DNA from: Eubacteriaceae bacterium
GTDB taxonomy: Bacteria; Bacillota; Clostridia; Lachnospirales; Lachnospiraceae
Direction of reading: 5' to 3'
NCBI GenBank assembly: GCA_910574895.1
Contig: CAJTDQ010000003.1
Coordinates: forward strand, 124,001-188,000
Length of the DNA stretch: 64,000 bases
Shown here: piece after piece, positions 17,403 to 47,666 of the stretch
How positions within the stretch are numbered: the first letter of the stretch is position 1
Layout of the letters: every line of letters starts with the position of its first letter
The notes under the pieces: generated by a model
The model's database searches: none
Told to the model about the DNA's origin: nothing
The model's input: only the letters and a program-made list of their open reading frames with translations
Translations under genes and position numbers: made by a program

Positions 17403-20400
17403 ATGAGACAGATAATCAGACGAATAACAGGATGGATTTTAGTGTTATCAATGATAACATCAATGTTTGGACAGCCGATTCCAATGGCTTATGCGGCAGA
17501 TGGAAACGAAGTTATGGGAGAAAAACCGGAATTATCGTTTACAATGACATATTATTCAGGAGGAAGCAGCATTAATCAGAACAAACATACGACTGATGGA
17601 GAGCAGGGTGATTTATCGGAGAATCTTAGAAATAAAAATAGTGCTTTACTTGGGCGTGGGGTTGAAAATGGAATTACGGTAGATCTGACAGCCGATTTGA
17701 AAAATGGGCGTGGTACAGCCAGAGGAATGTACTTTGAATTACAGCTTCCGGTATTTCGTGTTGAAGGAAGCAAACTGATAGAGCTGGATCAAAGTGAGAT
17801 AGAGCAATTAAAGGATGAAGATTTTAAAAAAGAAAATTCAAAACTGGTAAGAGTAATGGCACAGTTTTCGCCGGAAGATGCAGATCTTTGGGACGGATAT
17901 GTTAGTGGAACATCATATTGGGGAAGCAGTGTCAAGATATATCGAACTGGTGAACTGACTGGTGGTACTCAGGCAGTTGTTAAAACGAAACTCTATTTTG
18001 ATGGACATATGCCGGAAAATACAGCAGCTTTGGTAAGACTTGGTGGTGGATATGCGGAGTGTGAAGACAATGATAAGATTTACTATGATTGGTTTGAAAC
18101 AGCAGCCACCACAACAGATACAAAAGCAATATTTACAATGATTTGTTGTAACCTGGAGTGGGAACCAACAATAGAAGGAGTAAAGCCTAAGAATGTTATT
18201 TGGGATAGATATAATTATGTTACATACAAAGTAACTGTAAAAAATACATCGAAAGATCAGGATTCAAATTATAGCGCAACCAGTATTCAGATGGTAGTGC
18301 CTACGAATATGGGAACGGTAGATGGCTGGAGCAGTGGTCTCCATCCAGAAGAGGCTGCAAAGTTCCTGTATAATGATGGAAATCCAATCAAGAATGATGA
18401 TTTTGAAAGCAGTATACAGAGAGAAAACTATATGGTAGGTGTTCCTGGCAAGGGCGGTATTATGATTTATGACGTTACAGCCTTGGAAGCTACTGCCGAA
18501 GGACAGGAAGCAATGTCCAAATGGGATATGACCCATTTTACAAATATCAAAGATGAGAATGGAAAGAAATTAGAGGAGATTCCATATTATTTTAAGCCGG
18601 ATGGCGGAATCTATTTTCGTAAATATGAAAAAATATATAATGAAGTAGGAGCTAAGATACATGATGATGGCTCTGAATATGACCATACAACATTTTATGT
18701 AGCCCTTCCAATGGCAACGGACATTCCATCCAGTAAGCTGGATAGTCTGAATATTAAAGTCTATAATACCATTGCATTTGCAAATGATTATACTTGGACA
18801 AAAACTACGAATCATAATACATGGGGATTTATTAAGCCGGAAGATAGTTTTACCCATAAAAAGTTTGTTGTGGATAAAACAATAGTAAATGGAGAAGAAG
18901 TAGAAGAGGAGAAGGATAAACTATTTGTAGCAATTAATGATGAAGCGGATTATTATCTGGGACATTTCAAAAACACAGGAAATATTCCTATTTTTAACGG
19001 AATGGCGAATGATACCCATGATAAAGATTTTGGATTGACAAAAATCTCAGCTTTATTTAACCTTGCCGAAGGAGAGAAAGAGCCGGAATTAACAGACTGG
19101 TTCAAGAAAGACGATACAGTAGAATTTGAATTTCTGACATATGATGATCTGGCAGGAAGTGGCGGACCTGTTTCTGAATTCGTTTCTCTAGGTCAGTTGG
19201 AGCCGGATGAAACATTATCGAATGATAAGCAGAAAGCGTGGTCTTTGCAAATAGGAAATCTGATAAAGGATTACGAGCAAAGTGTCATTGCAACGGGTAA
19301 GAAATGTGTATATAATAACCGGTTCAGAGTAAGATTTAAGAAACGTATTGATCCGGGTGAAGAATTTGATGGAAGAATTACAGTGCATGGTGTTGCCGGC
19401 AAAGGAAAAGTATATAATAACAAATTGGATACTACATACGAAAAATGGATATGGAATCCAACATCTATGGCAGAGGACGACACAGGATATGTAAAGACAC
19501 CGAAAAAACTTGCAACAGATGAGGCTGATATTCAGGCGATTGTAGCAAAACCTCAGATAAATGCACAGGTAATTGAGAAAACAGAAAATGGATACCAGTA
19601 TGATGATCCTAAAACAGTTCCTGTAAATGTTCCGGGTTATGGTTTTTATTATCAGTTAGGTAACGACAGTGTTTCAAGGATAGTTCCGGGCATGTTTTCT
19701 ACAGGAACAGTTGCAACAGTGAATGACACGACAAAAGCTGTGAAAGGTTTTATTACAGATAAAGTTATTTTATCAAAGCGACTGGTAGATGAAATTGCAG
19801 AAATCGAAAATATTACATTACATACAAGTGCAGATACAGATAAAGATATTGTGCTTGCTGTTTCTGATTTTTCAAAAGATGATGATGGAAATTATTATAT
19901 AGATAGAAGTAAGTGGGAAAATAAGGGCGAGATTCTGTCTGTTTCAGTTAATGTAAAGAAGTTTGAGAAAGAAATAAATCTGACAGAAGATAATAAGGAT
20001 GTTTATGTTGTTCTGGAAGGAACGGCTAATACGGTTACGCCGAATGGTAATGCTGCGAATGCAATAAAACCTGTTGGCACATTTGAAACAAAATATAAAG
20101 ATGAGGATTTGAATGTAAAAGCAACAGATCCTGCAACAATGATTGTTGCAAATATTAATCCTGTTATCCGCGGTATCAGTTATGGAAGAAAGTGGCTTAA
20201 AGACAGCGATTATATTGAGTCTAAGGAAAACAGAGCCAGTGGAGCGGCAGACCAGAGTACAATACATCAGATTGAAGTTCCAAAAGGTATTGACAATTCA
20301 GGATATAAGTTTTTTATCGGTAATGCTACACCTTCTCCGGCAGGCAAATCAGAGATATCTGTTGATTTGTCCGGCAGTGTGGGAAATAAAACAACAAAAG

Positions 20401-23400
20401 ATGTTAATGTCAGAGGATTTTTAACAAAGACAGTTACGATTTCCGGTTTTAAAAATGTTGCTGACATAAAGCAGATAAGACTTTATAACTGGGATAAAGA
20501 TTCAAGTAAAGATAATGCTGATGTTACAATTCCGTTTAAGGAATTAGAAGTAAAAGACGGCGCTGTTACGATAAAACTTGAAGATTATAGTCAAATAGAA
20601 TATTTAAAATATATGGTTATTGACATGGATGAGTTTTATGGTGGTGGTGTTAAGGACACTCCGGAAATGGAAATTCAGTTAAATGGAGATACAAACTGGG
20701 TTGATTATCTGGATGCAAAATTGACATTTACACCGGAAGACGAGTCAATCCGTGGACAGGGAAATACGAAAGGAACCGTAAGTCTAACAGATCGTTTGTA
20801 TGTACAGAGACCGTATGCGGATATTCATGCAGATCTTCACTATTATGAATTTGATGGTACCACAAAAACTTCTAACGATAATAGAGATGGTAACGACAAG
20901 TATTTAGGTCTTCCTTATGACAGAGATTTTACTTATACGATTGATGTGGGAAATCCATATATATCAAAACTGGATGATTTTGATATAACAATTGACGTGC
21001 CTGTAAATGATAATAAGCAGGGAGAAGAGGCAAATACGGGATTCCATACAACAGGTTTTAGAATCAGTAAGGAATTGATAGAACAGTACGAGAAATTAGA
21101 AACAATTACTTTCTTTGATGCGGATAGTAATGCAGGAAAGACATTTGTTATTGATTATGAGGAAGGAAGGCTCATATCAAAAGATGACGACACAATTATA
21201 GAGGGAATTGTTTTAAATGGTGATATCTATATTGATGAGCAAAAGATATTTACAGAGTTTGGAATGAATATTCCAAATCTGAAAAAGATTATTATTACAG
21301 GAAAAGGATTTCAGGCAAATCCGGATGCTCCTGCAGATAAGAAACATAGAATCACACTTTACGGATTCTCAGATTCTGCAATTCATTCATGGAATAAGAT
21401 GGACGTGAATGGAACAAATTATCTCTGTGGTTTCCGTGGAGAAAAGTCGGAATATGTATTAAACAGTCATGATACGGCACAGGCTTATATCAGCAAAATG
21501 TATTTTGATACAACAATTGTTGCAGGATATAAGGATAACAAGGATAATGGAAAGCGTTTTGATGAGGTCAGTGACTCCTATGAGCATGTTAGAGCAGAGG
21601 ATTGGCATAGTGGTTATGGTTGGAGTAATCATTGGCCGGATGATGACGAATTAGATATCGGTTATAAGGCAATTGGCTCTTATATGATTGATTTTAGACA
21701 GTATTTAAATGCAGGAACAAATCATCCAAGTGATGCACATCATCATTCATTAAATGATATGGAAGTATATGGTTATCCGACATACAGATGTTATCCATAT
21801 GATTATATCTATACGCAGTCTATGAATACAGCGGCAGATGTACAGATGACCGTTGATTTGCCATCAGATTCTTTTGATGCTTATTATATGAAAGTACATC
21901 CAAAGGCATATAAATATTTGGAGTCGGTAAAGATACATCGAAGCGGTGATGATAATGATACATGGACTACGGTTACAGACTGGAAAGATTCTGTAGAAAA
22001 GATTACGGGAAGTACAGAAAAAGACAGTTATTACAGGGTAGACCTTCGTAAATTAGACGATGATTATGGAATTTATAAAAGCCCATTAATTGATTATGAA
22101 GTAGATAAACCTGTAGATAAAATTACTATTACATTAAATATTAACAGAGATGCTTCAGAAGAGAAAGATGGACAGATAGTTGCTAAAAATGCAGATTATG
22201 GAACATGGTATGAACAGACAAAATATATGTTTGAAGTTACGGGACGTTTCTACAAAGCAGGTATGGCAGATGCAACAGCTTCAACCAAAATGGACATTGG
22301 AAATCTGATAGAGCGTCCATATGCCAAAGCAAAAAGAAGAACAGATCAGGGCAGAGCAAATGGATGGAATGACATAGGTTCTGCATACCGCTCATCATGG
22401 TCATATCAGGATTATTATGATCCGTGCGGTTCATCATGGCATGATTATAGTAATTATAAGTCTTCACATCTGTTTTCAACAGCAAAGGTTTATGTATATC
22501 CGGCGGTTAACAATGTACAAAAAGGTGTACACACAAAGGCTGCTCAGGAGACAGACGAGCGTGCAAAATTTTCAAAATATAATGAGTATGTTGTAAGTTT
22601 TTGGCAGGCAGAAGAAGGCAGTACACATGACTGTTATAATGCACATACCGGAATGGGACATGCAGGCGGTCATTCGCTTAATAATGATCCATACAACTGG
22701 TCAGGAAAACGTTCTTTTACAGACCAGCTGACATTGACAGATACACTGCCTTATGTGAGACCGGATAAGGAGACAGGTCATTTTGGTTTCCTTACGAAGA
22801 AGATATTTATATCTGAGGATTTAAAACAGTACATTGATAAGATTGTCGTATATAAGAAAAAAGCAGTATTAAATGAAGATGGTACATGCAATGAACAAAA
22901 TTTAGCAGATACAATTGAAATCGCAGGTGCTGATCTTATCAAAGAAGATGTGAATGCAGAAAGACCGGAACAGATTCAGGGAAGTGACCAGCATGTGGTT
23001 CATTCAAATGCAGATAAAACGTTCTATGAGATTCCGATTATCTATCCGGATTCAGAAATAGAAGAAACAAAAGGTGCAATTGTACTAGGCGAAAATGAAT
23101 ATGTAACAAAATACGAAATACATATGAAAAATATGCCGGGTGATGTGGACTATGCGGCTGAACTAAAAGGTCGGGAAGGATTATTTGATTCATATGATCA
23201 TGGTTCTAGTACAGACCCTGATATATATGTAGGCGGTGATGTATATAGAGTAACGGCAGATAATATTATCAATTCCGGAGAGAAATGTGACTGGAATAAT
23301 ATGCAGAGTGCTTCTTATATGCAGAAGAGTGATGCTCCGTATTATACATATAATGACAAAGCGTTAATTACCTCTTACAGAATTCCTTTCCAGGGAGGAT

Positions 23401-26400
23401 ATACGATTACAAGAAATCATTCGGGTGATACGATTTATGATTATGAGAAGGATAATAAGACGCCGACGACAGCTAAATTTGACGTAAGAGTTTGGAACCG
23501 TAAAGATTTGGATGACGAAGAAAATCGTTCAGCAGAGATTGATAGTGCAGCAGTTACAAATACAATGAATGAAAACTACCGTCTGAAAAATATTTATATT
23601 CCAACAGAGTTTATAGAGGGAACATGGTTTAATGTTGAATATTTGCAGTTAGATGACACAAAAATTGAGATTGAGGCATTAAGAGAGAGTAAATATTTTA
23701 AAAAGAATGCGGATGGCACACAGTACATATTTGATGTGAATGGATATATCAGGGACAATCTTGATAAGATGAATACTTTTGCACCAAATAATACAAAAAT
23801 CGGGTCTTCAGAATATTATCATGAACAAATTTCAAAATTTGTAGTCAAATTTAAAGGAATCGGAAAAGAAATTCTCGATGGCGGAGAATTCCTGAATCCA
23901 TCCAGAGAATCATTGAGTGATATTACAATAGAGAAGGCAAGTCCTACATTCTCTTATGATGGTGTATATGTAGACAGGCATAAAGAAGATATAGAGAATG
24001 ACAGCTGGACATTCGATTCAAAGCCTACAATTATAAACAATGCAAATCATTATACTTCAACAACACATAATGAAAATCATGTAGGTGTTAAGTTTACGAC
24101 AAATGAGAGTGATGCATGGCCATATGGTTATCGAACAGATACAGGAACAGGTAATGATGCATCGGGAACAAAGAAGACAGATTATTATATTGTAAATAAT
24201 CTGGTAAGTACCATGGTAGTTGACATGAAGCGTCAGTCAACGCTGAAATCAGGAGACAGTACTTTTGCTTATGATATTGATGGAAATAAGGAACTCGCAG
24301 TCGATAAAAAGCATCTGTTACCGGATGATTATGTTGAATATCAGATTACTGTGGGAGCAGATGCGGATAGTCTGATTCCTTTATACCATCCGGATGTCCG
24401 TTTTAAAGCACCGAAGGGACAGCGTATCGTAGGATGGTATGTATTAGATAATGACTCTGAGATTCCAAAGGAAGATATTACAGCAAAAGCTATTTTGGGA
24501 GATGGCAATACAGTTACGTTTGAACAGAAAAAACGTTATTGTAAAGATAGTCAGAATGCAGTTACCAATTATAAATGGTTAGACATATCTTGTGGCGATT
24601 TGTCAAAGAGTGATGCATATAACCAATTAAATAATGGCGAAAAAGTTAAAATTGTTGTGGTAACTCAGTTGACACATGAAATTAATCCTTTTGAAGGCAA
24701 GGTTATCAATGACGATGAAAAAGAAAGAATATATGTGTATGGGCATCCAAAGCACACATATTCACAGTACAGAATATTACATAAAAACGGTCAGACAGAT
24801 AATCGTGCATCAGGAGACTTCTATATCGATAATGCGGAGGAGGCTACATATTATCGTGGAAATGGCAATGGTTATTATGGTTCTTTCTATGACAAAGAGA
24901 GCACCTATTATGCAGATATCAGAACGAAATTAAGATTTTTTGATAATCGTCTGGATCTCACATTGAAGTATGTAGATGATTATGATTTGCCGGGTAAAGA
25001 TGAAGATACAAATCCTCATATCGATGAACGTCCAATGATTATCGAACTCAGAGGAGCAGATAAATCAGATGTGTATAATGATACACTGCATACATTAAGT
25101 TCTGCGACGTATACAGTTTCGTTCTTATCTGACAACAGAAAAGATGGAAGGTTATTCAAAGGCTTTGATTTAGTAGAAAAACCAGTATTTAAATATCCGG
25201 AAAAACTGAATCCTGACGGAAACCGAAACGCTGCTGTCAAGTATTGTTTCTTTGATGACATTGGAACAGACAAGGGAATTTATACAGACGGTGAATATGC
25301 AGAAGTATGGTTGTCAGAAGATAAGGTTATTGAAGGAGATAAACTGACACAGCAGCAGAAGAACGACGGCTGCCGTTTACTAAAGGATGCTGTAAAAATT
25401 CAGTGGACATATGATGACATACCAGCAGAACCAATTGTATTTGCAACAAGTGAGAAACCATTTGAGTTCAGAGGTATTGGAAGATACCGTGATATCAGAA
25501 ATGATGCAGAAAAGCAGACAAAGACAGCAGATGATAACTTTACGATTGGAATAACAGCTGTTTCTGAACTGGTACATTCACATAGCGAAAACATCAATAA
25601 TACGATAGAAGATGGTACATCAGAAGATATTATATATGAAGGAACTGCCAAAGTCGTAGGAAATGGCAGCATAACAAATGTTATAACAAGAGAAAGACCA
25701 ATTGTTACCCTGCACACTCAGATATTTAACAGTGTGGACGTGGCAGGAGAAGAATACGATGAAAATGCAGCGCAGGTAAAGGGTTATCGTCCGGGAGATA
25801 CAGTATGGTATAAATCAACTGTTATTAACCATGAAAAAGGACAGACACAACCACAGGGAGCGTTATTGGAGCCTGTTATTTTCGATAAGATTCCTGAATA
25901 TATCACTACTTCCGGTCTGGATACAAATAATATTAAAGTAAAATGGTATGATGCGGATGGAAAATTGAAAGAAGATATTCCAAATTATACGATTACCCGT
26001 GAAAGGTTCGAAGATGTTGCTGATTACGGTGGAGACTTTGTTACAGAAAAGAGTAATACAGATGGATGTTATCAGGGAAGAGGTCATGCATTTGCAGATT
26101 TGACGTTTGGTGAATCCGGCAATAGTACTTCTACACCGATTAACTACAATGTATATGCAATACAGTTTGAAAAAGGTTCACGTCTGGAAATCGGTGAGCG
26201 TTTAGAAGTTTACTACGAAGCAGAAATCAGAGAAGAGAATCTTCCTCTAGCATATACGAAACGTACAGGCACAGATTCTGTCACAAAGACATTTGTAGAT
26301 TATTATCCGAAGATGGGTGAATACTATCAGTGGACACATGGTTATTATACAGGTTACTCTTGGGATGGAAATAATTATTCTTATCCATATGCTAATGCGG

Positions 26401-32400: not shown

Positions 32401-35400
32401 GTTATATCGGACATTATGTATGGTTAGATGAAAGTTATAATGCGAAGTTTACGGATGAAGGTGAATATATACAGAGGGATGGCAGATGGTTATTAAATAA
32501 GGCAACAAAAGACCTTGATTATGATGGAGAGATTGATGATCCGGGTATTAATGATGTAAAAGTAGAACTTCTTACAGAAAAGGGATATCCGGTAAACCGT
32601 TTAGGTGAAGCAGTTGTAGAAAAAGATGGAAGATATCTTGTTATTAATGAAAATAGCGGAAAAATCAGCGTGGACAGCATGGGTTCACCGATTTATACAC
32701 CATATGGACCAATGGCTTATACAACAGAAAAAGATGCATATGGGCATGATGGTTACTTCATTATTTCAAATATCAAACCGGGCAAGTATAATCTGCGTTA
32801 TACATTCCCTGAAGGAAGTAAATATGAAAAATACGCTTTGACTACCAGAAGTCTTGGTGTTACCGGAACATCTATCAAGGTATATCGTCCGGGTGAAGAT
32901 GATGTACTTCCGGATTTGGGAGCAGCAGGAAAAGGTGATGAACCAAGTGATGGAGCGAAAGTGAAATCATTCACAATTCAGACAACAGAGCCTATTCAGA
33001 TTGATGCCATAGGTGAAGATGAATCTACATATGCTGAATATGACGAGAAGATGACATCTTACGATTTAGGTGTTGCACCATCTTTCTCATATGGCGGATA
33101 TGCATGGATGGATATCCAGTATGATGCAGAAGGTCAGCCAAAGTCAGACAGTATTAATGGACAAATGGATGACGCAGAGCAGAAACTGGAAAATGTAGGT
33201 ATTCATATTTATGAAGTCAAGGCAGATGGTACACATGTACCGGCATATGATAAAAACGGTCTGGAAATTAAGATGCTATATACGGATGAAAACGGTTACT
33301 TTAAGACCACATTGTATCCATATAGAAGTTATATTGCTGTGGCTGATGCAAAGAAGGTCAATGATGTAATCCAGCCGTCACCGGTTACTATCAGCACAAG
33401 GGCTCTTCAATATGAAAAGGATAATGATCTGCTTTATAACGAGGAACTCAATCAGAATACAACAAATGTGTTTGCCATTATTCCGACATCAGCGGACTAT
33501 AACATGGGAACATGTGTTGATGGTCAGTATGGTACTTACAACAGATTAGGATTTGGTTATGTACCGGCAGGTATCGGTGCTATCGGAAAATATGTATTTA
33601 ACGATGAAAACTATGATGGTATTAGAAATGAGTACATTGATAAAGATGGATATATTGTTTCAGAACCGGGTATTGATAATGTGAAGCTGGTACTTGAAAA
33701 GTACTATTATAAGGATGGCAAGTGGAATCTTTTGAATGACCACTTTGCGGAAACTACAAGTTTAGGTTCTTCATATTCGTTCATTGTTGATGCATCTTAT
33801 ACAGATGAAACAGCAGATGAGGAAGGAACCAAGTATCTGTGTGGATATAAGGTGAAAGTCGATATGAGTACGGTGCCGGAAGGTTTTGTACCAACAAAGT
33901 ACTACATGAACGATGGAGTATCGGACAGTGATTTACCAATTCGTGGAGATAATTACAGATATCTTACAAAAGAACCTGTAATCATTGCATCAGTAGCTGA
34001 CAAAAACAGTCTTGATGAATATAAGATTACTATGGAAGATGAGACTTATGATATTTCAAAGGCACTTATTATTACCAAGTATGATGCAGGATTTACAACA
34101 GAAGACAGAGCTCAGATTGACGGTGTTGTATGGAATGATAAGAACTATGATGGTGAGCGTGGCAAGTATACAGATGCAGAGGGTAACAAAACAGATGAGC
34201 CGGGTATGGCTGATGTTGAGTTACAGCTTGTACCATACGTTTACTATAACAACAAGTGGGAGCATCTTGATAAAGATAATTTGAAAAATGCTGACAAGTA
34301 TAATGAGTATACGCCAATTACAATCACAGATGCTGATGGTGTCTACAGTTTCACCGGAGTGAGAACAGTGGCAGTTATGTCAGATGACACGAAATGTATT
34401 GTAGGTTATAAGATAAGAGTCAATACAGATATTGAAGACTTACATTATGGTATTACAAAGTACAGAACCTGTGATACCGATGTAGATAGTGATTTGTGGA
34501 AGACAGAGAATGGCGAGTTTATATTAAATGCAGAGGATGAATTTATCATTACTGCAAAGAAAATTCCTGCAAAAGATGTTGAGAAAGAGTATGGCAAAGA
34601 AGCTCTTAAGAATCAGGAAGAATTATTAATTCATAATAATCTGGGTTACTTTGAGATAAATAAGGTAACAGATTATAAGGGAAATGATGCAGGTCTCGTA
34701 GAATTCCGTCAGGGTTCTGTATCCGGTAAAGTTTGGCTGGATGACGATTATAACGGTATCATGGACGATTCTGAACATGGAATGGCAGAAGAAAAAGTTA
34801 CAATAAGACGTTATTATCTGGAAAGTGTATCAGATGGAAAGGGTAAATGGACAGAAGATACTACATATACAGGACCTGTCTGCACAACAGATGTTCAGGG
34901 TGATTATCTGTTTGATAATCTTGATTCTTATATCTATAAAGATGGTAAATATTATCTGGCAGGATATAAGGTATACATGGCTGAGGAACCGGATAATTCA
35001 GTGTATGGAATTACATTGTATGGACAGTATAATCCGGATATACAGCGAGGCAGTGACCTTAAGGAATTAGAACTTACAAAGGATGATGATTACATTATTA
35101 TTGCTAAGCACTGTGGAAAAGTAGATGATTCTGAAAATATAAATGGAATCAGTGCTGCTGAGAAAGTAGGAGAACTGGCACATGTAGCAGCATATAAGGG
35201 TAATTATTATGACTTAGTTACAGCAAGGGCTTATGAAAAGCTGGATGCAGGATATCATTTATATCCAAACGCAACAATTACAGGCTGTGCATTTGAAGAT
35301 TATAATTATGACGGTATCATGAATAGTGGAAAAGACGGAAAGGTTGATTCATTCACTGATGAATTGAAGGCAGCTCTTAACGGTAACGACATTGTTGTGA

Positions 35401-38400
35401 AAGCAACAGCTTACTATTATGATCATGGTCAATGGAAACAGCATATTGATAATGCAGGAACACCGGTTATTTATACAGATGTTATCTCTGCTTCAAGTAC
35501 AGATGGCAGGTATGAGATTGCTGTACCGACAAAGATCAATGTTGAACACAAAAATTATCTGGCAGGATATAAACTTGAAGTGAATATGATTCCAAAAGGA
35601 TATCACATTACAAAACATAAAGCAGATGGAAAAGTATCGGACAGCAATGCTTTGATTAAGGAAGCATCAGCAAAATATAATATTACCAAGACTCTTGCTA
35701 AACGTCCTTATGCAGGAACGATAAAGGAAGAAATGGATGGTTATGTTATACCTGCAAATCCGTCAGATGACCCTTCCAGTGCAAATATTATCGGAGATTA
35801 TGATATTGCTGAGGGCAGAGTTGTCAGCGATTATAACATGGGATATGTTGCTCATGAAACATCAATGATTGATGGTATTGCTTTTGAGGATAAAAATGAT
35901 AATGGTAAATACGATAAGCCTGCTGAGGGAGACGGTAAAACTTCTGACAAACTGCTCAGCGGTGTAAAGGTTGGTATTAAGCGTTATCAGTTTGATGCTG
36001 AAAACAACACATGGGTGAAAGCACCAAAAGCAGATGCACCAAATGATGAGTACTTTGCAGTGGCAGTTACAGATAAAGACGGATATTATGCTTTTGAGAA
36101 CTTACCAACACATGTGGATACCGGAGATAAAGCAGATAAACCGGTTCTTTATGGATATACGGTATGGCTGCTTGAAATGCCGGTCAATGATGAAGGTCAG
36201 GAGATGGCTGCAACATATTACCAGGCAAACAAAGATAAAAATGACAGTGCATTGGTTGCAGGTAATATGCAGATTATCAAGGCAGAGAGCAATCCAAATC
36301 TGGATGCGGATGAATTAAAAGATGGTAATACAATGATTGCTCATAAATTACCTGAGATTGATCCGGAACGTTCTGATATTGTGGAAGGTTATGATTGTAC
36401 AGTCGGTTCTCCACGAGATGGATACAATCTTGGATTTGTTGATTATGCGAAGGGAAGCATTGAAGGATGTGTTTTCCACGATAAGAATATTGATGGTATT
36501 ATTGACAAGGATGATGCAAAGTATGAAAACATCAGTGTTGGACTGAAACGGTTTGTTTTTGAAAACGGACAGTGGACATTGGCACAGGATGAAGGAACAG
36601 AATATTTTGCAACAGCAGTGACAGAAGCAGACGGTAATTACAAATTCGATAATCTTGCTACGTTTACTACGGATGATGGTACGAAACGTATTTATGGTTA
36701 TGAAGTTTGGGTAATGGAGACACCGGAAGATCATGTTATAACAAGATACCAGATGAACCATGGAAAGAATGACAGTGCGGTGCTTTTAGACAGTCAGATT
36801 ATAAAGAAAGATACCACATTAAGTGAGGTACTTGACGGCAAGCTGGTTGTAGCAAGAAAGACAAACACTGCAAAAGAGGATGGACTGGATGATATATATG
36901 TTGTTGAAGGATATGATGTTGTCCGCGAAACACATCTGAATGATTACAATGCAGGATATACTATTTTACGAAAAGGCGAAATTAATGGTACTGTATTTGA
37001 AGATGCTGACTATGATGGAATAATGGATGAAGATGAAAAATTATGGGAAGGCATTGAGGTAGGATTAAAGCGTTTCGTATACGAAGATGGAAAATGGGTT
37101 CCGGCACAGGATGAAGAATTTATAAAAACAACAGTAACAGATGGAGATGGACATTATACATTTGGTAACCTTAAGACACACGTCAAGAAAGACGGAGAAA
37201 ATAAACTTTATGGTTATGAAGTGTGGGTGCTTAAAGATAAGGATGGTTACGCTGTAACAAGATATGGAAATGACAGTTTCTTACTTATCAGTGGACAGAT
37301 TATCAAAGCAGATACCGAATTACCGGAAATGCTTGATGGAAAGACAGTTGTAGCCCACAAGGTGACAGAGCAGGATAATGTAGAAGGTATCAATGATGTC
37401 TATTTTGTAGAAGGTTATAATGTAATACTGGCAGAGATTGTCGGTGATTATAATGCCGGATATATCAAAGAGCAGAAAGGTTCTATCAGTGGAACAGTAT
37501 TCGATGATGTAAACTATGACGGTATCATTGGTGAAGAAGATAAATTCATGAAGGATATCGAAGTAGGACTGAAGCAGTTTGTATATGAGGAAGGTAAATG
37601 GATTCCAACACAGGAAGAAGGATTTATCAGTACAACAGTAACAGACGAAAAAGGTCATTACATATTCGAAAATCTTGAAACACACAAGAAGGAAGAGAAT
37701 GTCAATAAACTGTACGGCTATGAAGTATGGATTACGAAGGATCCGGACGGATATGCTGTGACGAGATATGGAGATGACAGTTTCTTACTTATCAGTGGAC
37801 AGGTTATTAAGGCAGATACTGAATTACCGGAAATGCTTGATGGAAAGACAGTTGTAGCCCACAAGGTGACAGAGCAGGATAGCATAGAAGGAATTGATGA
37901 AATCTATTTTGCAGAAGGCTACAATGTGGTTCTTGCAGAGGACATTGAGAAGTATAATGCCGGATATATGAAGGAACAGAAAGGTTCTATCAGTGGAACA
38001 GTATTTGATGATGTAAACTATGATGGTATTATCAGCGAAGAAGATAAATTCATGAAGGGTATCGAAGTAGGACTGAAACAGTTTGTATATGAGGAAGGTA
38101 AATGGATTCCAACACAGGGAGAAGGATTTATCATCACGACAGTAACAGATGAAAAAGGTCATTACACATTTGATAATCTTGAAACACATAAGAAAGAAGA
38201 TAATGTCAATAAACTGTACGGTTATGAAGTATGGATTATGAAAGATCCGGACGGATATGCCGTAACGAGATATGGAAATGACAGTTTCTTGCTTATCAGT
38301 GGACAGGTTATTAAGGCAGATACTGAATTATCTGAAATGCTTGATGGAAAGACAGTTGTAGCCCACAAGGTAACAGAGCAGGATAGCATAGAAGGAATTG

Positions 38401-41192
38401 ATGAAATCTATTTTGCAGAAGGCTACAATGTGGTTCTTGCAGAGGACATTGAGAAGTATAATGCCGGCTACATGAAGGAACAGAGAGGTTCTATCAGTGG
38501 AACAGTATTTGATGATATCAATTATGACGGCATCATTGGTGAAGAAGATAAATTCATGAAAGATTTCGAAGTAGGACTGAAACAGTTTGTTTATGAAGAT
38601 GGAGAATGGATTCCTACACATGATGAGAAATTTATCAGTACAACAGTAACAGATGAAAAAGGTCATTATGTATTTAATAATCTTGAAACACACAAGAAAG
38701 AAGAGAATGTCAATAAACTGTACGGTTATGAAGTATGGGTAGTGAAGGATGAGGAAGGCTACGCAGTAACACGATATGGAGAGGACAGTTTCTTACTTGT
38801 AAATGGACAGGTTATAAAACTGGATATGGAGTTATCTGAAATGTTTGCTGGCAAGTCTGTAACAGCTCATAAAGTGACCGAACAGGAAAATGTAGAGGGA
38901 ATTGACGAGATTTATTTCGTAGAAGGTTACAATGTGGTTCTTGCAGAAAATCCGGATCGTTATAATGCAGGATATATGAAAGAACAGAAAGGTTCTATCA
39001 GCGGAACGGTATTTGATGATATCAATTATGACGGCAAAATTGATGAAGAAGACAAATTTGTCAAAGATTTCGAAGTAGGACTGAAACAGTTTGTTTATGA
39101 AGATGGCGAATGGATACCTACTCATGAAGAAGGATTTATCAGCACGACAGTAACAGATGAAAATGGTCATTATACATTTGATAATCTTGAGACACATAAG
39201 AAGGAAAAGGATGCCAATCAACTGTATGGATATGATGTATGGATTATCAAAGATCCGGACGGCTATGCAGTAACAAGATATGGTGATAGCAGTTTCTTAC
39301 TTGTGAGTGGACAGATAATTAAGGCAGATACTGAATTACCGGAAATGCTGGATGGAAAGATTGTAGTAGCGCATAAGGTAACTGAGCAGGATAATGTAAA
39401 AGGTATTGATGAAATTTACTTTGCAGAAGGTTACAATGTGGTTCTTGCAGAAAATCTTGAAGATTACAATGCAGGATATACAATCATAGAGAAAGCAGCA
39501 ATTACAGGTTCCGTATTTGATGATGTCAACTATGATGGTCTGATTGATAATGAAGACAATATGTTGGAAAACATCGAAATAGGTTTGAAGCGTTTTGTTT
39601 ATAAGGATGGAGAATGGAAACCAGCACCAGACAAAAAGGCAGAGGACCAGAACGAAGTAAACAATACAGAATCAGACAAAAACCAGAATAAGGAAGAGAC
39701 ATCTACAACAGAAACGGATGCAGAGCAGAAGACAGAAGAATTCTTTGCAACAACGTTAACAGATAAAGGTGGTAATTATGCATTTGAAAATCTTGATACA
39801 TTTGTTACTGAAGATGGCAATAATTATATGTATGGTTATGAATTGTACATTATCAATCATGAAGACAGACTGGCGACGAAGTATCAGATGAATGAAGGTA
39901 CGGGTGACAGTGCACTTCGCAGTGACAATTATCAGATTATTAAAAAAGATAATGGTCGTGAAGAATTGTTCAAAGGCTGTATCGTTCTGGCACAGAAGAA
40001 AGATAAGGAAGAAAATCCTAATAAACCATATGTTATAGAAGGTTATGATGTTGTCAAAGCGATTGTCCGTGATCAGAATAATGCTGGCTTTGTTGCAAAG
40101 CATAATCATAGTATTTCAGGTCTTGTATGGATAGATGAAGACCATGATGGAATCTGTAACGAAGAAACTTTTGCGAAAGGTGTTGATATTACACTTGAAA
40201 AGTTATATCTTCAGAATGGACAGTGGCTTACAATGGATAGTGAAGCTTTTGTAACAGTTCAGACTGGCAAAGATGGTACATACCGATTTGATAATCTTGA
40301 ATTATATGGTTATAAAGATGAAAAACCGGTGGTTTATGGATATCGTGTGAAAGTTCCAAATCTTCCAAGCAGGTATGGAGTTACTATTTTCCATACGGAT
40401 GGTGAAGGTAACAAGAATGACTTGAACGAAAAGACAGGTTATCTAGAGAATGAACAGGTGTTAATTGTATTAGCAGACAAAGCAGATGAAACAACACCTT
40501 CGGACTACAATATAGAAGGATATAATATTTCTCATGGATTCTCAGTAGAGTCTCTTGATGCAGGTATTGTTCCTTATGGTGTAGGAAGTATCGCAGGTAT
40601 CGTATTCGAAGATGCAAATGCTGATGGTATTATTGACGATAATGAAGAGATATTTGAAGATAAAGAAGTTTATCTTGAGTACAAAGACGGTTCTGATGAA
40701 GAGTCCGACTTTGTAAGATATCCGGGTGGTAAGACAGTAACAGATGAAAGAGGATTATTCATATTCGAAAACCTTCCGGTTCTTGATGAGAATAATGAGC
40801 CATATCAATATCGTGTAACGATGGAAAAACCGGAAGAACGCTCCTTTACAAAGGCATTTGACTTTGTTATATTTGGAGATAAGAAGGTTAACATCCTTTC
40901 ACCTGACACTGAAAAAGGTGATAAGGATGAGGTTACAACAGGTATTACGCCTGTGATTACATTGGCAGTTCCAAGAAAGCAGAAGAATTGTTATAATCTG
41001 AAATATGAGTTTGATGGTTACAACCATAAAAATGCATACCTTGGTTTTACACAGGTAGAAAAAGCAGACCAGATTCAGACCGGATTAGATGACAGATATT
41101 GGTGGGCATTATTACCAATTATGCTGGCAATAATGACAGGTGCAATTGTTGTGATTGTTGGTAATAAGAAAAGAAGAAAGGAAATAGAATAA
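17403..41192 (+). CDS. Giant (7,929-residue) secreted SdrD-B-repeat surface protein
   Basis: A single uninterrupted frame of 23,790 bp encodes a protein of very roughly 0.9 MDa. Residues 1-31 are a signal peptide (RR basic start, hydrophobic core, AYA before ADG). Residues about 32-5000 form a beta-rich stalk rich in Asp, Tyr, Asn and Lys, in which DUF11-like turns recur (for example TDTLPYV about 1779, VIFDKIPEY about 2823, ITEILPAGIVP about 3586, YDVLPFVG about 4786). Residues about 5000-7820 hold about 16 SdrD-B-like domains, many with Ca2+-loop patterns such as DKNIDGIIDKDD. The C-terminus has IQTG (7891-7894), a membrane segment (7899-7920) and NKKRRKEIE, a cell-wall sorting layout without LPXTG. 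A class B sortase lies two genes downstream. It is probably an adhesin or a filament spanning the surface layer; ligand unknown. Confidence 0.9.
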   Translation: MRQIIRRITGWILVLSMITSMFGQPIPMAYAADGNEVMGEKPELSFTMTYYSGGSSINQNKHTTDGEQGDLSENLRNKNSALLGRGVENGITVDLTADLKNGRGTARGMYFELQLPVFRVEGSKLIELDQSEIEQLKDEDFKKENSKLVRVMAQFSPEDADLWDGYVSGTSYWGSSVKIYRTGELTGGTQAVVKTKLYFDGHMPENTAALVRLGGGYAECEDNDKIYYDWFETAATTTDTKAIFTMICCNLEWEPTIEGVKPKNVIWDRYNYVTYKVTVKNTSKDQDSNYSATSIQMVVPTNMGTVDGWSSGLHPEEAAKFLYNDGNPIKNDDFESSIQRENYMVGVPGKGGIMIYDVTALEATAEGQEAMSKWDMTHFTNIKDENGKKLEEIPYYFKPDGGIYFRKYEKIYNEVGAKIHDDGSEYDHTTFYVALPMATDIPSSKLDSLNIKVYNTIAFANDYTWTKTTNHNTWGFIKPEDSFTHKKFVVDKTIVNGEEVEEEKDKLFVAINDEADYYLGHFKNTGNIPIFNGMANDTHDKDFGLTKISALFNLAEGEKEPELTDWFKKDDTVEFEFLTYDDLAGSGGPVSEFVSLGQLEPDETLSNDKQKAWSLQIGNLIKDYEQSVIATGKKCVYNNRFRVRFKKRIDPGEEFDGRITVHGVAGKGKVYNNKLDTTYEKWIWNPTSMAEDDTGYVKTPKKLATDEADIQAIVAKPQINAQVIEKTENGYQYDDPKTVPVNVPGYGFYYQLGNDSVSRIVPGMFSTGTVATVNDTTKAVKGFITDKVILSKRLVDEIAEIENITLHTSADTDKDIVLAVSDFSKDDDGNYYIDRSKWENKGEILSVSVNVKKFEKEINLTEDNKDVYVVLEGTANTVTPNGNAANAIKPVGTFETKYKDEDLNVKATDPATMIVANINPVIRGISYGRKWLKDSDYIESKENRASGAADQSTIHQIEVPKGIDNSGYKFFIGNATPSPAGKSEISVDLSGSVGNKTTKDVNVRGFLTKTVTISGFKNVADIKQIRLYNWDKDSSKDNADVTIPFKELEVKDGAVTIKLEDYSQIEYLKYMVIDMDEFYGGGVKDTPEMEIQLNGDTNWVDYLDAKLTFTPEDESIRGQGNTKGTVSLTDRLYVQRPYADIHADLHYYEFDGTTKTSNDNRDGNDKYLGLPYDRDFTYTIDVGNPYISKLDDFDITIDVPVNDNKQGEEANTGFHTTGFRISKELIEQYEKLETITFFDADSNAGKTFVIDYEEGRLISKDDDTIIEGIVLNGDIYIDEQKIFTEFGMNIPNLKKIIITGKGFQANPDAPADKKHRITLYGFSDSAIHSWNKMDVNGTNYLCGFRGEKSEYVLNSHDTAQAYISKMYFDTTIVAGYKDNKDNGKRFDEVSDSYEHVRAEDWHSGYGWSNHWPDDDELDIGYKAIGSYMIDFRQYLNAGTNHPSDAHHHSLNDMEVYGYPTYRCYPYDYIYTQSMNTAADVQMTVDLPSDSFDAYYMKVHPKAYKYLESVKIHRSGDDNDTWTTVTDWKDSVEKITGSTEKDSYYRVDLRKLDDDYGIYKSPLIDYEVDKPVDKITITLNINRDASEEKDGQIVAKNADYGTWYEQTKYMFEVTGRFYKAGMADATASTKMDIGNLIERPYAKAKRRTDQGRANGWNDIGSAYRSSWSYQDYYDPCGSSWHDYSNYKSSHLFSTAKVYVYPAVNNVQKGVHTKAAQETDERAKFSKYNEYVVSFWQAEEGSTHDCYNAHTGMGHAGGHSLNNDPYNWSGKRSFTDQLTLTDTLPYVRPDKETGHFGFLTKKIFISEDLKQYIDKIVVYKKKAVLNEDGTCNEQNLADTIEIAGADLIKEDVNAERPEQIQGSDQHVVHSNADKTFYEIPIIYPDSEIEETKGAIVLGENEYVTKYEIHMKNMPGDVDYAAELKGREGLFDSYDHGSSTDPDIYVGGDVYRVTADNIINSGEKCDWNNMQSASYMQKSDAPYYTYNDKALITSYRIPFQGGYTITRNHSGDTIYDYEKDNKTPTTAKFDVRVWNRKDLDDEENRSAEIDSAAVTNTMNENYRLKNIYIPTEFIEGTWFNVEYLQLDDTKIEIEALRESKYFKKNADGTQYIFDVNGYIRDNLDKMNTFAPNNTKIGSSEYYHEQISKFVVKFKGIGKEILDGGEFLNPSRESLSDITIEKASPTFSYDGVYVDRHKEDIENDSWTFDSKPTIINNANHYTSTTHNENHVGVKFTTNESDAWPYGYRTDTGTGNDASGTKKTDYYIVNNLVSTMVVDMKRQSTLKSGDSTFAYDIDGNKELAVDKKHLLPDDYVEYQITVGADADSLIPLYHPDVRFKAPKGQRIVGWYVLDNDSEIPKEDITAKAILGDGNTVTFEQKKRYCKDSQNAVTNYKWLDISCGDLSKSDAYNQLNNGEKVKIVVVTQLTHEINPFEGKVINDDEKERIYVYGHPKHTYSQYRILHKNGQTDNRASGDFYIDNAEEATYYRGNGNGYYGSFYDKESTYYADIRTKLRFFDNRLDLTLKYVDDYDLPGKDEDTNPHIDERPMIIELRGADKSDVYNDTLHTLSSATYTVSFLSDNRKDGRLFKGFDLVEKPVFKYPEKLNPDGNRNAAVKYCFFDDIGTDKGIYTDGEYAEVWLSEDKVIEGDKLTQQQKNDGCRLLKDAVKIQWTYDDIPAEPIVFATSEKPFEFRGIGRYRDIRNDAEKQTKTADDNFTIGITAVSELVHSHSENINNTIEDGTSEDIIYEGTAKVVGNGSITNVITRERPIVTLHTQIFNSVDVAGEEYDENAAQVKGYRPGDTVWYKSTVINHEKGQTQPQGALLEPVIFDKIPEYITTSGLDTNNIKVKWYDADGKLKEDIPNYTITRERFEDVADYGGDFVTEKSNTDGCYQGRGHAFADLTFGESGNSTSTPINYNVYAIQFEKGSRLEIGERLEVYYEAEIREENLPLAYTKRTGTDSVTKTFVDYYPKMGEYYQWTHGYYTGYSWDGNNYSYPYANAVNGLSIQFKNQNDMMDMNYLYHDVGVSGTRNKNIDRYEYLKDSDAFMPGSGADGNSYGRTEIYGSNGYLKDEDIRTANNQQRTYYVPTRTDGKHDELPLSESYRSQSISGNARDWYSRLMSLRVRSANWQGEHSDAVLWAESRLHLQTAWLAASSEMIGDENYLKSKEYLPTNYRDGKWDNHYNSDYWYSGCTNLRDYTREINDDTITTLEYDQYFTSRIGAYNYGDWDITGGIEFTYIMPQGIEPKLNKDGTPDFSDITAEIMREGTSANPVYEKIDASDVTVEVVQKPGSADGYLTPNIMRDPLLSTSVMNKTGDSYEGKNAYYTAEEHTSWVLKITVKKTLGKWFNRGDKSGYAMRVDIPSHVYATPKDEYWYDEVMVKPVDTEENLYYQVYDTTTLWGNNYLVGMPTPISTQKNGMDFMWNVYYVHTHSGSEQCIDGSKYFWNGSPNTPYINGMNITNREVSTQGVTEDSVPTDNRQAFSNGVRNTYANTGTRAHMRKPMIRTWTTIGEDNVAGNKAADYYVDPQGDSSAVNIHVENKYWLNTLAPDHMWYDYYSTHYRETFKVRHTYATDGGNMGTLFYPVITEILPAGIVPKDVNGDLFTHNNEENAKKKLDWTLKGADYNGGSLEELKEYQDEKELYQCTVEYIELAGEDGKVEGRYRINFKQKAEPDVRSDKKIKIDSESARVFSFKFFTEDGSDIATKDGKEDRRLGDQYQSNHTFVSSELDYFKFLIDSDAVNAARENPYFVGGPFVSTYVHGGWAGTIPDTRRDSAETSIKAMLPKVPTANNMGTDSAINATDEGGVKRYIEDGKKIKIDGRELDMEDYPNLRESLHLKAEDSDLDGGYDTSNMGVHTSSRIRLKYPVIENKTFVSKNVAEAVDNLGGRSPQWQNGIYDYYPSQNIPVEYLNDLYFNVKVVNGADSVGTEDYYHHGNMSHGKMKVTIVLPSIVRTVSLKGSDVYLLFKKADGETVRMNIDEAEDLGFEFKVLNHFINDEQKETIIFEVRTPGDYADDITAANYDDYIRGKHMPGYFGYKDTLVVGVKTTVRNNILDTEKIDFTDDYWKDPVWDEEFKADGYVTMDDVNGDYLKTMNADGDFDLLTELDGAGITYEKMVSDDKETNTDWDGDKDYTDEYTKDESAIVTLMKPHSTVRLDTSVQRSEIDNPDLVEGVQRVVDDPIIKSAVKLSVYMDQAVNEGGAVGEFIVDWRIPFRSTLLGTTEEAPVTEDTITKRIYALGTGVWEIPDTAGDEAYRERLKNDLDVQVYALCSKDAENAADSASYKNINNMWEGEWINLTELYNKHVNRIERPGVDIDKNTVIDISDLSLKLYGERSELGQKIYQVRYVVSSKTGNYAVPKGFRLAIDADPEKDGNQEMNEIDPEHENVEPLPESVTSEPDENGEYSEDAKIGNAAFIMLTGSHLSATRRHVNHFATGWARYDDTQYCVDSMRSRAGYYIARELPVIEIDMNNQYFKIGKNQEGKSEYKWSDDIVINDASHMLKYKLQLKNLSNKEIEKTNVGEVEEDTATNPQLVAVLPIIQNIDMSLESKDPLIYKKYHEVEYGEEEWESTLSPDCTANVSFKDSQAAWTWHVEDGKGNVVPKDKHDITSVTMAMYDKIAGIKYLRQRRIMRWTSKGHLAPGQRIVIEFMVPVSTEDTFTTTTELLSCKAYGFKPGAFVPHIPTSEEAVNYAYEIDVRDVNDNGESNVENTITVSVNNIGFSGTNAFNRTKRSFSEYGTGQNEQGNGRDRPSLVPEGTNYDFISSIINPDTQGTSKGFQQPVIYDVLPFVGDTQLVAQTSGYAASRGTDWRGWLNLASIEVKTQTGSEARTLKDGNDVHVWVGPFNYSGSKIVKIPIEKLPDVSQTSSIAFYNQIRGESGAAINEKCKYFVRLSDLLRLKTTNKEEYSELEKHAQAIYVEPLNNYFLASNTKLSVSYRLKAPLNMPLSKKYTPEDSENILNATADVDGWNSFSAQSGSDKAVESPYAGVYTAAPADRGYIGHYVWLDESYNAKFTDEGEYIQRDGRWLLNKATKDLDYDGEIDDPGINDVKVELLTEKGYPVNRLGEAVVEKDGRYLVINENSGKISVDSMGSPIYTPYGPMAYTTEKDAYGHDGYFIISNIKPGKYNLRYTFPEGSKYEKYALTTRSLGVTGTSIKVYRPGEDDVLPDLGAAGKGDEPSDGAKVKSFTIQTTEPIQIDAIGEDESTYAEYDEKMTSYDLGVAPSFSYGGYAWMDIQYDAEGQPKSDSINGQMDDAEQKLENVGIHIYEVKADGTHVPAYDKNGLEIKMLYTDENGYFKTTLYPYRSYIAVADAKKVNDVIQPSPVTISTRALQYEKDNDLLYNEELNQNTTNVFAIIPTSADYNMGTCVDGQYGTYNRLGFGYVPAGIGAIGKYVFNDENYDGIRNEYIDKDGYIVSEPGIDNVKLVLEKYYYKDGKWNLLNDHFAETTSLGSSYSFIVDASYTDETADEEGTKYLCGYKVKVDMSTVPEGFVPTKYYMNDGVSDSDLPIRGDNYRYLTKEPVIIASVADKNSLDEYKITMEDETYDISKALIITKYDAGFTTEDRAQIDGVVWNDKNYDGERGKYTDAEGNKTDEPGMADVELQLVPYVYYNNKWEHLDKDNLKNADKYNEYTPITITDADGVYSFTGVRTVAVMSDDTKCIVGYKIRVNTDIEDLHYGITKYRTCDTDVDSDLWKTENGEFILNAEDEFIITAKKIPAKDVEKEYGKEALKNQEELLIHNNLGYFEINKVTDYKGNDAGLVEFRQGSVSGKVWLDDDYNGIMDDSEHGMAEEKVTIRRYYLESVSDGKGKWTEDTTYTGPVCTTDVQGDYLFDNLDSYIYKDGKYYLAGYKVYMAEEPDNSVYGITLYGQYNPDIQRGSDLKELELTKDDDYIIIAKHCGKVDDSENINGISAAEKVGELAHVAAYKGNYYDLVTARAYEKLDAGYHLYPNATITGCAFEDYNYDGIMNSGKDGKVDSFTDELKAALNGNDIVVKATAYYYDHGQWKQHIDNAGTPVIYTDVISASSTDGRYEIAVPTKINVEHKNYLAGYKLEVNMIPKGYHITKHKADGKVSDSNALIKEASAKYNITKTLAKRPYAGTIKEEMDGYVIPANPSDDPSSANIIGDYDIAEGRVVSDYNMGYVAHETSMIDGIAFEDKNDNGKYDKPAEGDGKTSDKLLSGVKVGIKRYQFDAENNTWVKAPKADAPNDEYFAVAVTDKDGYYAFENLPTHVDTGDKADKPVLYGYTVWLLEMPVNDEGQEMAATYYQANKDKNDSALVAGNMQIIKAESNPNLDADELKDGNTMIAHKLPEIDPERSDIVEGYDCTVGSPRDGYNLGFVDYAKGSIEGCVFHDKNIDGIIDKDDAKYENISVGLKRFVFENGQWTLAQDEGTEYFATAVTEADGNYKFDNLATFTTDDGTKRIYGYEVWVMETPEDHVITRYQMNHGKNDSAVLLDSQIIKKDTTLSEVLDGKLVVARKTNTAKEDGLDDIYVVEGYDVVRETHLNDYNAGYTILRKGEINGTVFEDADYDGIMDEDEKLWEGIEVGLKRFVYEDGKWVPAQDEEFIKTTVTDGDGHYTFGNLKTHVKKDGENKLYGYEVWVLKDKDGYAVTRYGNDSFLLISGQIIKADTELPEMLDGKTVVAHKVTEQDNVEGINDVYFVEGYNVILAEIVGDYNAGYIKEQKGSISGTVFDDVNYDGIIGEEDKFMKDIEVGLKQFVYEEGKWIPTQEEGFISTTVTDEKGHYIFENLETHKKEENVNKLYGYEVWITKDPDGYAVTRYGDDSFLLISGQVIKADTELPEMLDGKTVVAHKVTEQDSIEGIDEIYFAEGYNVVLAEDIEKYNAGYMKEQKGSISGTVFDDVNYDGIISEEDKFMKGIEVGLKQFVYEEGKWIPTQGEGFIITTVTDEKGHYTFDNLETHKKEDNVNKLYGYEVWIMKDPDGYAVTRYGNDSFLLISGQVIKADTELSEMLDGKTVVAHKVTEQDSIEGIDEIYFAEGYNVVLAEDIEKYNAGYMKEQRGSISGTVFDDINYDGIIGEEDKFMKDFEVGLKQFVYEDGEWIPTHDEKFISTTVTDEKGHYVFNNLETHKKEENVNKLYGYEVWVVKDEEGYAVTRYGEDSFLLVNGQVIKLDMELSEMFAGKSVTAHKVTEQENVEGIDEIYFVEGYNVVLAENPDRYNAGYMKEQKGSISGTVFDDINYDGKIDEEDKFVKDFEVGLKQFVYEDGEWIPTHEEGFISTTVTDENGHYTFDNLETHKKEKDANQLYGYDVWIIKDPDGYAVTRYGDSSFLLVSGQIIKADTELPEMLDGKIVVAHKVTEQDNVKGIDEIYFAEGYNVVLAENLEDYNAGYTIIEKAAITGSVFDDVNYDGLIDNEDNMLENIEIGLKRFVYKDGEWKPAPDKKAEDQNEVNNTESDKNQNKEETSTTETDAEQKTEEFFATTLTDKGGNYAFENLDTFVTEDGNNYMYGYELYIINHEDRLATKYQMNEGTGDSALRSDNYQIIKKDNGREELFKGCIVLAQKKDKEENPNKPYVIEGYDVVKAIVRDQNNAGFVAKHNHSISGLVWIDEDHDGICNEETFAKGVDITLEKLYLQNGQWLTMDSEAFVTVQTGKDGTYRFDNLELYGYKDEKPVVYGYRVKVPNLPSRYGVTIFHTDGEGNKNDLNEKTGYLENEQVLIVLADKADETTPSDYNIEGYNISHGFSVESLDAGIVPYGVGSIAGIVFEDANADGIIDDNEEIFEDKEVYLEYKDGSDEESDFVRYPGGKTVTDERGLFIFENLPVLDENNEPYQYRVTMEKPEERSFTKAFDFVIFGDKKVNILSPDTEKGDKDEVTTGITPVITLAVPRKQKNCYNLKYEFDGYNHKNAYLGFTQVEKADQIQTGLDDRYWWALLPIMLAIMTGAIVVIVGNKKRRKEIE
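36972..39491 (+). repeat. Five in-frame 504-bp tandem units inside the giant gene (four nearly identical)
   Basis: Units begin at 36972, 37476, 37980, 38484 and 38988, each exactly 504 bp (168 residues: 6524, 6692, 6860, 7028, 7196). The last four begin with K/RGSISGTVFDD and share long identical stretches such as YDG, EEDKF, VGLKQFVYE, TTVTDE and NKLYGYEVW; the first begins KGEINGTVFED and is more diverged. A sixth, less similar unit starts at 39492 with a 30-40-residue insertion. Each unit is an SdrD-B-like domain of about 80 residues plus a linker domain ending YNAGY. Exact periodicity and high identity point to recent duplication and make copy-number change by recombination likely. Confidence 0.92.
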
Positions 41193-41212
41193 GGGGATTT
41201 TTCCCCTTATTC
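41187..41212 (+). terminator. Hairpin overlapping the stop codon of the giant gene
   Basis: A perfect 11-bp stem, GAATAAGGGGA (41187-41197) with TCCCCTTATTC (41202-41212), has a four-T loop and is followed by TTTATT. The left arm includes the TAA stop codon. It probably acts as a partial terminator that lowers expression of the downstream genes relative to the giant gene. Confidence 0.7.
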
Positions 41213-41224
41213 TTTATTAAGGAC

Positions 41225-47645: not shown

Positions 47646-47666
47646 GTTATAAAAGGAGAGCGTGAT

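Follow-up and report, generated by a model that had tools for sequence, protein, structure and literature searches.

A giant surface protein gene from a Lachnospiraceae bacterium and the SBP_bac_5-like and sortase genes that follow it: a protein family of Bacillota and Actinomycetota with a predicted dedicated partner in Bacillota

The 64,000-nucleotide stretch analysed here (the window; positions 124,001 to 188,000 of contig CAJTDQ010000003.1, assembly GCA_910574895.1) comes from a Eubacteriaceae bacterium placed in the Lachnospiraceae and encodes a giant surface protein of 7,929 residues. Sequence comparison places this giant in a single family across Bacillota and Actinomycetota whose core is conserved and free of repeats. 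Directly after it comes a gene for a relative of solute-binding proteins (SBPs) of the SBP_bac_5 family that, judged by its phylogeny and genome context, is specific to the giant and is predicted to be its dedicated partner, and the third gene encodes a class B sortase. Both downstream genes had been overlooked by a first-pass annotation that described the giant from the letters alone. On balance, the three genes are best read as a surface-display unit, in which a sortase-anchored giant adhesin is served by a dedicated secretion or folding partner, an interpretation we favor by a modest degree. The genes are:

17403..41192, + strand: giant surface protein gene, 7,929 aa (ORF listing, translation, relatives)
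41186..41213, + strand: 12-bp intercistronic hairpin spanning the giant's stop codon (folding of linked loci)
41225..42610, + strand: SBP_bac_5-like protein with N-terminal membrane anchor, 461 aa (Pfam, PDB profile, alignment, tree)
42650..43414, + strand: class B sortase, 254 aa, TLSTC motif (Pfam, PDB profile, translation)

The SBP_bac_5-like neighbor

The SBP-like gene begins 32 bases past the giant gene and its 461-residue product contains an SBP_bac_5 domain (Pfam, E 5.7e-26). The best solved matches are nickel- and peptide-binding proteins (NikA, E 4e-8), and 10 columns are invariant among the 16 SBP sequences aligned.

Is this neighborhood a peculiarity of one genome? The A1 alignment scan of species genomes yielded 58 loci with relatives of the giant, of which Bacillota account for 25 and Actinomycetota for 33 (phyla taken from record titles; L038, L054, L062 and L090 placed with the help of other searches; L, G and C numbers denote loci, genomes and contigs). 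The giant's 3' end is included in 19 of the 25 Bacillota loci, with the end of L034 lying behind a masked stretch and that of L045 in genome G355. The gene directly after the giant encodes an SBP in 17 of the 19 loci (18 of 20 counting the window), which by their record titles span three orders; the exceptions are L038 and L046. Among the Actinomycetota, none of the 13 loci with a 3' end, two of which have fewer than 700 bases left, has the SBP/sortase pair beside the giant. In L059 an SBP gene with a lipobox-like start and followed by a permease-like gene is found 4.7 kb downstream and was not taken as linked. When 16 genomes lacking a linked SBP at the locus were searched by profile, a giant-adjacent SBP turned up only in G355. 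In Adlercreutzia equolifaciens the SBP nearest to a giant is an ordinary lipobox protein followed by ATP-binding cassette (ABC) genes, with other genes lying towards the giant, and it was rejected as an Actinomycetota counterpart; a second such nearest SBP match lies in A. caecimuris. G379 and G380 contain SBPs resembling the linked ones (E 8e-44 and 9e-41) on contigs other than those of their giants, which run off their contigs.

Moreover, the 17 linked SBPs form one clade as against 23 other SBP_bac_5 proteins taken from five of these genomes (ultrafast bootstrap 100, Shimodaira-Hasegawa-like approximate likelihood ratio test 99), and this clade was recovered in 100% of 200 bootstrap trees. 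The comparison set derives from 53 SBP_bac_5 matches, of which 30 had loci, less five giant-linked proteins and less L136 and L146, which gave no profile match; the SBP of L045/G355 is absent from the tree, and for L070, where the SBP is split into two frames, the longer piece was used. Pairwise distances among the SBPs follow those among the giants (r 0.906, n=17; reached in 0 of 5,000 permutations, uncorrected for ancestry). In the clade of the window the SBPs have 457-464 residues, some 100 fewer than the 560-571 residues found in L056, L057, L062 and L076-L078.

In addition, the giant's neighbor is the one and only SBP_bac_5 match in the genome of the window. No match to OppC_N or oligo_HPY was found in this 98.9%-complete genome, while the controls were positive in 11 of 14 cases, and no permease gene adjoins the SBP gene in the window. 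Since the genome holds this sole SBP_bac_5 match and neither an OppC_N nor an oligo_HPY match, a role in Opp/Dpp-type transport seems unlikely. As far as sequence can tell, the SBP-like protein descends from ABC solute-binding proteins, is membrane-anchored and has no transporter of its own type evident in the genome.

A strong hairpin (z -2.2 to -5.8) lies between the stop codon of the giant and the start codon of the SBP in 11 of the 15 linked loci that were folded, a sample excluding L034 and L045. Weak hairpins occur in L041 (-1.2) and L066 (-1.8) and none in L062 and L077; in L078 the two genes are separated by only 5 bases. The position of the hairpins is constant and their sequences differ, consistent with a putative leaky terminator or attenuator. 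A scan of the window with Rfam returned nothing at gathering score.

The sortase and the sorting signals

The 254-residue product of the third gene matches the sortase family (PF04203, E 1.4e-12), has a sortase B as closest solved structure (2oqw, E 5.8e-29) and contains the motif TLSTC. A class B sortase is the third gene in 10 of the 19 Bacillota loci (L034, L035, L036, L042, L056, L057, L062, L076, L077 and L078), or in 11 of 20 with the window; the sequence of L043 ends just past the SBP. Sortase and giant distances are also correlated (r 0.911, n=11; 0 of 5,000 permutations, again uncorrected for ancestry). The linked sortases of the window's clade form one group (support 98), and all 11 linked sortases fall within a 15-row group of a tree computed without L026 (no profile match) and L163 (longer than 600 residues). 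Because this group also holds four unlinked sortases, the link of the sortase to the giant appears looser than that of the SBP. Eight sortase matches were found in the 2.48 Mb of the window's genome, as compared to one to seven in seven other genomes searched.

The sorting tail noted in the first-pass annotation is present, albeit with a divergent motif: the giant ends in QIQTG, a 19-residue stretch with a mean hydropathy of 2.53 and NKKRRKEIE, contains no Leu-Pro and is thus, by its sequence, a divergent type of sorting signal and not LPXTG. In the wider clade of the window, the signal of eight giants has the form x[VI]xTG (QIQTG, GVKTG, KVNTG, KVYTG, SVNTG, NIDTG, NVDTG and NVNTG), and the signals of other giants include NPKMG, IPKTG, QPKTG, QPKTS, LPKTG, LPQTG and FPKLG. 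A class B sortase adjoins the giant's unit in five loci of the window's clade (the window, L034, L035, L036 and L042), in four of which the signal is readable. Adjacency and co-inheritance suggest that the class B sortase two genes downstream anchors the giant via QIQTG. According to excerpts of a report on Clostridioides difficile, CbpA of that species bears NVQTG and its SrtB did not cleave NVQTG in vitro (PMC4155245).

Architecture of the giant protein

The following parts of the giant can be distinguished:

17403..17501, + strand: signal peptide-like N-terminus, basic and hydrophobic, ...MAYAADG (by eye from the translation)
19500..21392, + strand: tandem array of three diverged ~200-aa units, residues ~700-1330 (profile self-comparison, Pfam)
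22803..31802, + strand: single-copy conserved region without Pfam family, residues ~1800-4800 (Pfam, alignment, profile self-comparison)
25740..28712, + strand: core common to both phyla, residues 2780-3770 (profile scans, AlphaFold2, fold comparison)
30471..32702, + strand: core used to find the family, residues 4357-5100 (alignment scan)
32370..40682, + strand: about 16 SdrD_B-like domains, copy number variable among relatives (Pfam, motif scan, profile self-comparison, alignment)
37458..39473, + strand: four 168-aa units, DNA 81-94% identical (repeat comparison)
41070..41189, + strand: cell wall sorting signal, QIQTG, hydrophobic stretch, NKKRRKEIE (translation, motif scan)

Residues 1-33 resemble a signal peptide and have the typical composition, as seen by eye in the translation. 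The N-terminal 5,000 residues are as poorly recognized as had been stated: residues 1-4,999 contain no Pfam family above cut-off, searches with the N-terminal part gave no NCBIfam family and no sequence relative in the PDB up to E 1, and profile searches returned nothing credible. Within region 30-1450, DUF7619 matches 3 of 11 family members scanned and DUF5650 1 of 11, the protein of the window itself matching neither.

The same residues had been described as a beta-rich stalk, a description of which the first half is supported for the part that was modelled. Structure prediction with AlphaFold2 of residues 2780-3770 (991 residues; predicted local distance difference test 81.6, predicted template modelling score 0.83) yielded a model according to which this core would consist of immunoglobulin (Ig)-like beta-sandwiches of the type of pilins and antigen I/II adhesins. 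A repetitive stalk is not what the sequence looks like. A profile self-comparison was made on an alignment of 12 proteins (903 window pairs); for profile windows with starts at residues 1801-4651, some 3,000 residues, it revealed no internal repeat and no pair above 17% probability. Furthermore, a full-length alignment with 11 relatives from 10 genomes is collinear (three relatives are 3'-incomplete, G344 being masked and cut and G350 and G361 reaching contig ends). Because residues 1-6,500 align in all 11 relatives, with each 250-residue bin covered to 77-100% at 19-68% identity, the N-terminal 5,000 residues would seem to have a defined architecture and not to be a mere spacer. In the core 4357-5100, Lys4733, Asp4787, Asn4946 and Asn4972 are present in 40 of 40 alignment rows, and such conserved Lys, Asp and Asn columns would fit intramolecular isopeptide bonds.

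Residues 5,000-7,929 match SdrD_B (PF17210) in 9 stretches (E 5e-52, 175 bits at a cut-off of 29.7). The proposed number of about 16 SdrD-B-like domains agrees with 14 starts found by motif scan at residues 5399-7735 plus two further diverged copies near 4995 and 5195 that are supported by profile evidence and by eye; in the profile self-comparison the array begins at about residue 4990. Since coverage in the relatives drops to 0-99% between residues 6,500 and 7,500, the SdrD_B copy number appears to be the variable part of the giants. A search of the giant gene for DNA tandem repeats with a period of up to 500 found none because the unit length is 504 bp.

Distribution and size of the family

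Residues 4001-5200 match 4 of 299 genomes of the bacterial family, the window's own included, and the other three carry giants of 7,311, 12,125, 9,429 and 10,103 residues. The core of the A1 scan is patchy within the genus (1 of 23 genomes), and at class level 3 of 391 genomes match, two of them only by weak short matches. Rescanning the 42 genomes behind 43 of the 58 loci gave a match in 42 of 42 and no stops inside the matches. In a quick tree the giants of Erysipelotrichia nest inside a mostly clostridial clade. This nesting and the patchy occurrence would be compatible with lateral transfer. Neither among 72,556 plasmid records nor among 50,697 phage records was there a match to residues 4357-5100, and the idea of the giant as phage or plasmid cargo was rejected on these zero matches. 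Judging from their names, many of the genera are presumably gut bacteria.

Many frames of relatives end at contig ends. The longest, in Slackia sp. ZJ119 (L119-L125; G385:C39:10182-114752), comprises 34,856 residues in one contig and is to our knowledge among the longest bacterial frames; the same strain also holds frames of 30,463 and 22,174 residues. A1/A2 cores occur in Eggerthellaceae frames of up to 34,927 residues, and several of the shorter frames are truncated where their contigs end. Clostridium asparagiforme DSM 15981 (L062), whose chromosome is recorded as complete, encodes a more distant relative of 9,750 residues. On a single contig of Beduini massiliensis (L102-L105), collinear giants of 6,927 and 6,925 residues lie about 0.35 Mb apart; behind each there is a separate SBP gene but no adjoining sortase.

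How might the three genes work together?

For the unit as a whole the following sequence of events could be imagined. The giant would be exported through its signal peptide and fold outside the membrane as a long chain of beta-sandwiches, which is predicted for 991 residues and presumed elsewhere. The class B sortase would attach it to the wall at QIQTG, and the length-variable SdrD_B array would hold the conserved N-terminal two thirds off the cell, where they may act as an adhesin or cell-contact structure; mucus, host or other bacteria, as proposed in the first-pass annotation, would be conceivable targets. The hairpin after the giant's stop codon would probably keep both helper genes at a lower dose. 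The SBP-like protein might hold the emerging chain and hand it over to folding and to the sortase, a step for which we have some sympathy but which we would not yet bet on, drawn as it is by analogy: chaperone activity of OppA and DppA toward other proteins is described in excerpts of PMC8144458 and is likewise the subject of PMC7442780, as far as excerpts of the latter tell. Still more tentative is the broader idea that in Bacillota an SBP of the OppA/DppA kind was turned into a membrane-anchored extracytoplasmic chaperone, which together with its own sortase B of altered motif preference exports and anchors chains of about 7,000-12,000 residues.

Alternatively, the SBP-like protein could be an anchored surface binder of ligands such as peptides, metals or glycans, serving the cell or the giant. 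That the SBP fold family is kept and that the 10 columns mentioned above are invariant would be consistent with this proposal, which we nevertheless regard as unlikely, as no transporter of the SBP's family is evident in the genome and the SBPs of the window's clade lack about 100 residues relative to the 560-571-residue ones.

Somewhat less probable still is that the SBP-like protein senses peptides and thereby controls the giant. On enterococcal plasmids, the OppA-like proteins PrgZ and TraC, whose genes neighbor that of a surface adhesin, take up mating signals, and the SBP_bac_5 fold with its nickel- and peptide-binding best solved matches would suit such a function. However, PrgZ works via the host Opp system, whereas OppC_N and oligo_HPY are unmatched in the genome of the window, and no regulator gene adjoins the pair there.

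The giant could also be an ordinary giant adhesin, and SBP and sortase an old hitch-hiking pair that shares no function with it. The Actinomycetota giants and two Bacillota loci do manage without an adjoining pair. Yet the SBP has stayed next to the giant in nearly all Bacillota loci across three orders, and the linked SBPs group in a single clade and vary in step with the giants, which makes such hitch-hiking about as improbable as the sensor.

Integrity of the giant gene

The ORF 17403-41192 on the + strand starts with ATG and has zero internal stops over 7,929 codons, while the other five frames of the same DNA contain 241-952 stops each, bearing out the earlier impression of an intact frame of exceptional length. 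Given the base composition of the gene, one stop per about 13 codons would be expected, and the probability of no stop in 7,929 codons is about 10^-285; the second-longest ORF of the window encodes 1,178 residues. Codon usage agrees with that of the neighboring genes (relative synonymous codon usage, r 0.87-0.94).

The earlier claim of strong selection on the frame finds support in relatives, the window gene itself having had no near neighbor for the test. For the giants of G344 and G346 (89.7% identical), the ratio of nonsynonymous to synonymous substitution rates (dN/dS) is 0.087 over 6,855 codons and 0.05-0.144 in 14 bins, demonstrating purifying selection on this close pair.

An assembly artefact that joins several genes is next to impossible for the gene as a whole: the assembly is a draft and has near-identical repeat units within the gene, and a near-identical fragment in G013 shifts frame, but single collinear frames in 10 other genomes including other genera, a relative within a finished chromosome and the dN/dS of the relatives rule out such a fusion, and the description as one surface protein stands. 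The fragment (L024, G013:C202) is a 5' piece from the same genus with a frame change near codon 37, on a contig of 3,835 bases from a genome only 65% complete. The window sits inside contig C3 of a 2.48 Mb genome in 27 contigs, and the number of repeat units could be wrong because of this fragmentation and of the near-identical 504-bp units (four copies, 81-94% identical DNA).

Comparison with known systems

The giant itself is a sortase-type adhesin-like surface protein of a known kind; new are the breadth of the family, the non-repetitive core and the predicted dedicated SBP partner in Bacillota. In A. equolifaciens two giant LPXTG genes of 74.8 and 74.2 kb, AEQU_0093 and AEQU_1251, were reported in 2013 (PMC3778203), the former being named also in excerpts of PMC8142583. 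Both very probably belong to the family since the giant frames of another strain (L050/L087, G359), of 24,860, 20,475 and 12,867 residues, carry the family core. Like the window's protein they are giant surface proteins, here of LPXTG type, with about 25,000 residues and from a gut bacterium. They are some three times longer and come from another phylum, Actinomycetota, in which no SBP/sortase pair was seen next to the giants (0 of 13 loci). Giant1-5 of the bee symbiont Apilactobacillus kunkeei are extracellular proteins of 3,000-8,000 residues with a signal peptide and under purifying selection, as described in excerpts of PMC12863079; compared with that description, the window's protein has Ig-like domains in its modelled part, about 3,000 repeat-free residues and a sortase signal.

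With staphylococcal Sdr proteins the giant shares SdrD_B (PF17210) near the wall-anchored end. Its length is several-fold that of typical Sdr proteins, and it shows by eye no serine-aspartate dipeptide region before the sorting signal and has an N-terminal region unmatched in Pfam and PDB. Compared to the tandem Ig ligand-binding domains of MSCRAMM (microbial surface components recognizing adhesive matrix molecules) proteins, Ig-like folds are predicted in residues 2780-3770. The fold class of this 991-residue core is that of sortase-assembled pilins and antigen I/II adhesins, yet there is no credible sequence match and the giant is one polypeptide and not a polymer of subunits. Similarly, the SBP-like protein has the SBP_bac_5 domain in common with OppA, DppA and NikA and differs in standing beside a giant surface protein, in forming a separate clade and in a genome without matches to OppC_N and oligo_HPY. 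Searches of the open-access literature, with subscription papers outside their reach, found no account of a giant/SBP/sortase unit.

Other genes in the window

An ArsR-like regulator and a His-rich P-type ATPase (by eye) lie at 47628-50124, 6 kb past the giant. The same pair follows the giant directly, on the other strand, in L038 (18714-21560), perhaps by coincidence. At 56675-61479 the 1,178-residue protein and an Hsp70-like protein (by eye) are encoded, apparently in one operon. At 62454-64000 begins an exported protein with CBM96 (E 9e-10) that resembles large wall-associated proteins and runs off the window.

Implications

Giant surface proteins have so far come mostly from single-genome or single-species reports. 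Here the core of a whole family has no Pfam family, and the Bacillota members come with a constant helper gene, to which a sortase is often added. How does a Gram-positive cell export and fold one chain of about 0.9 megadalton, and does it use an own sortase for signals of the xVxTG type (QIQTG, KVNTG, SVNTG)? Both questions can now be tested, with the five units of the window's clade that have an adjoining class B sortase as natural test cases for the x[VI]xTG motif. The SBP-like protein, moreover, is a clear candidate for a transporter protein that has retired from transport.
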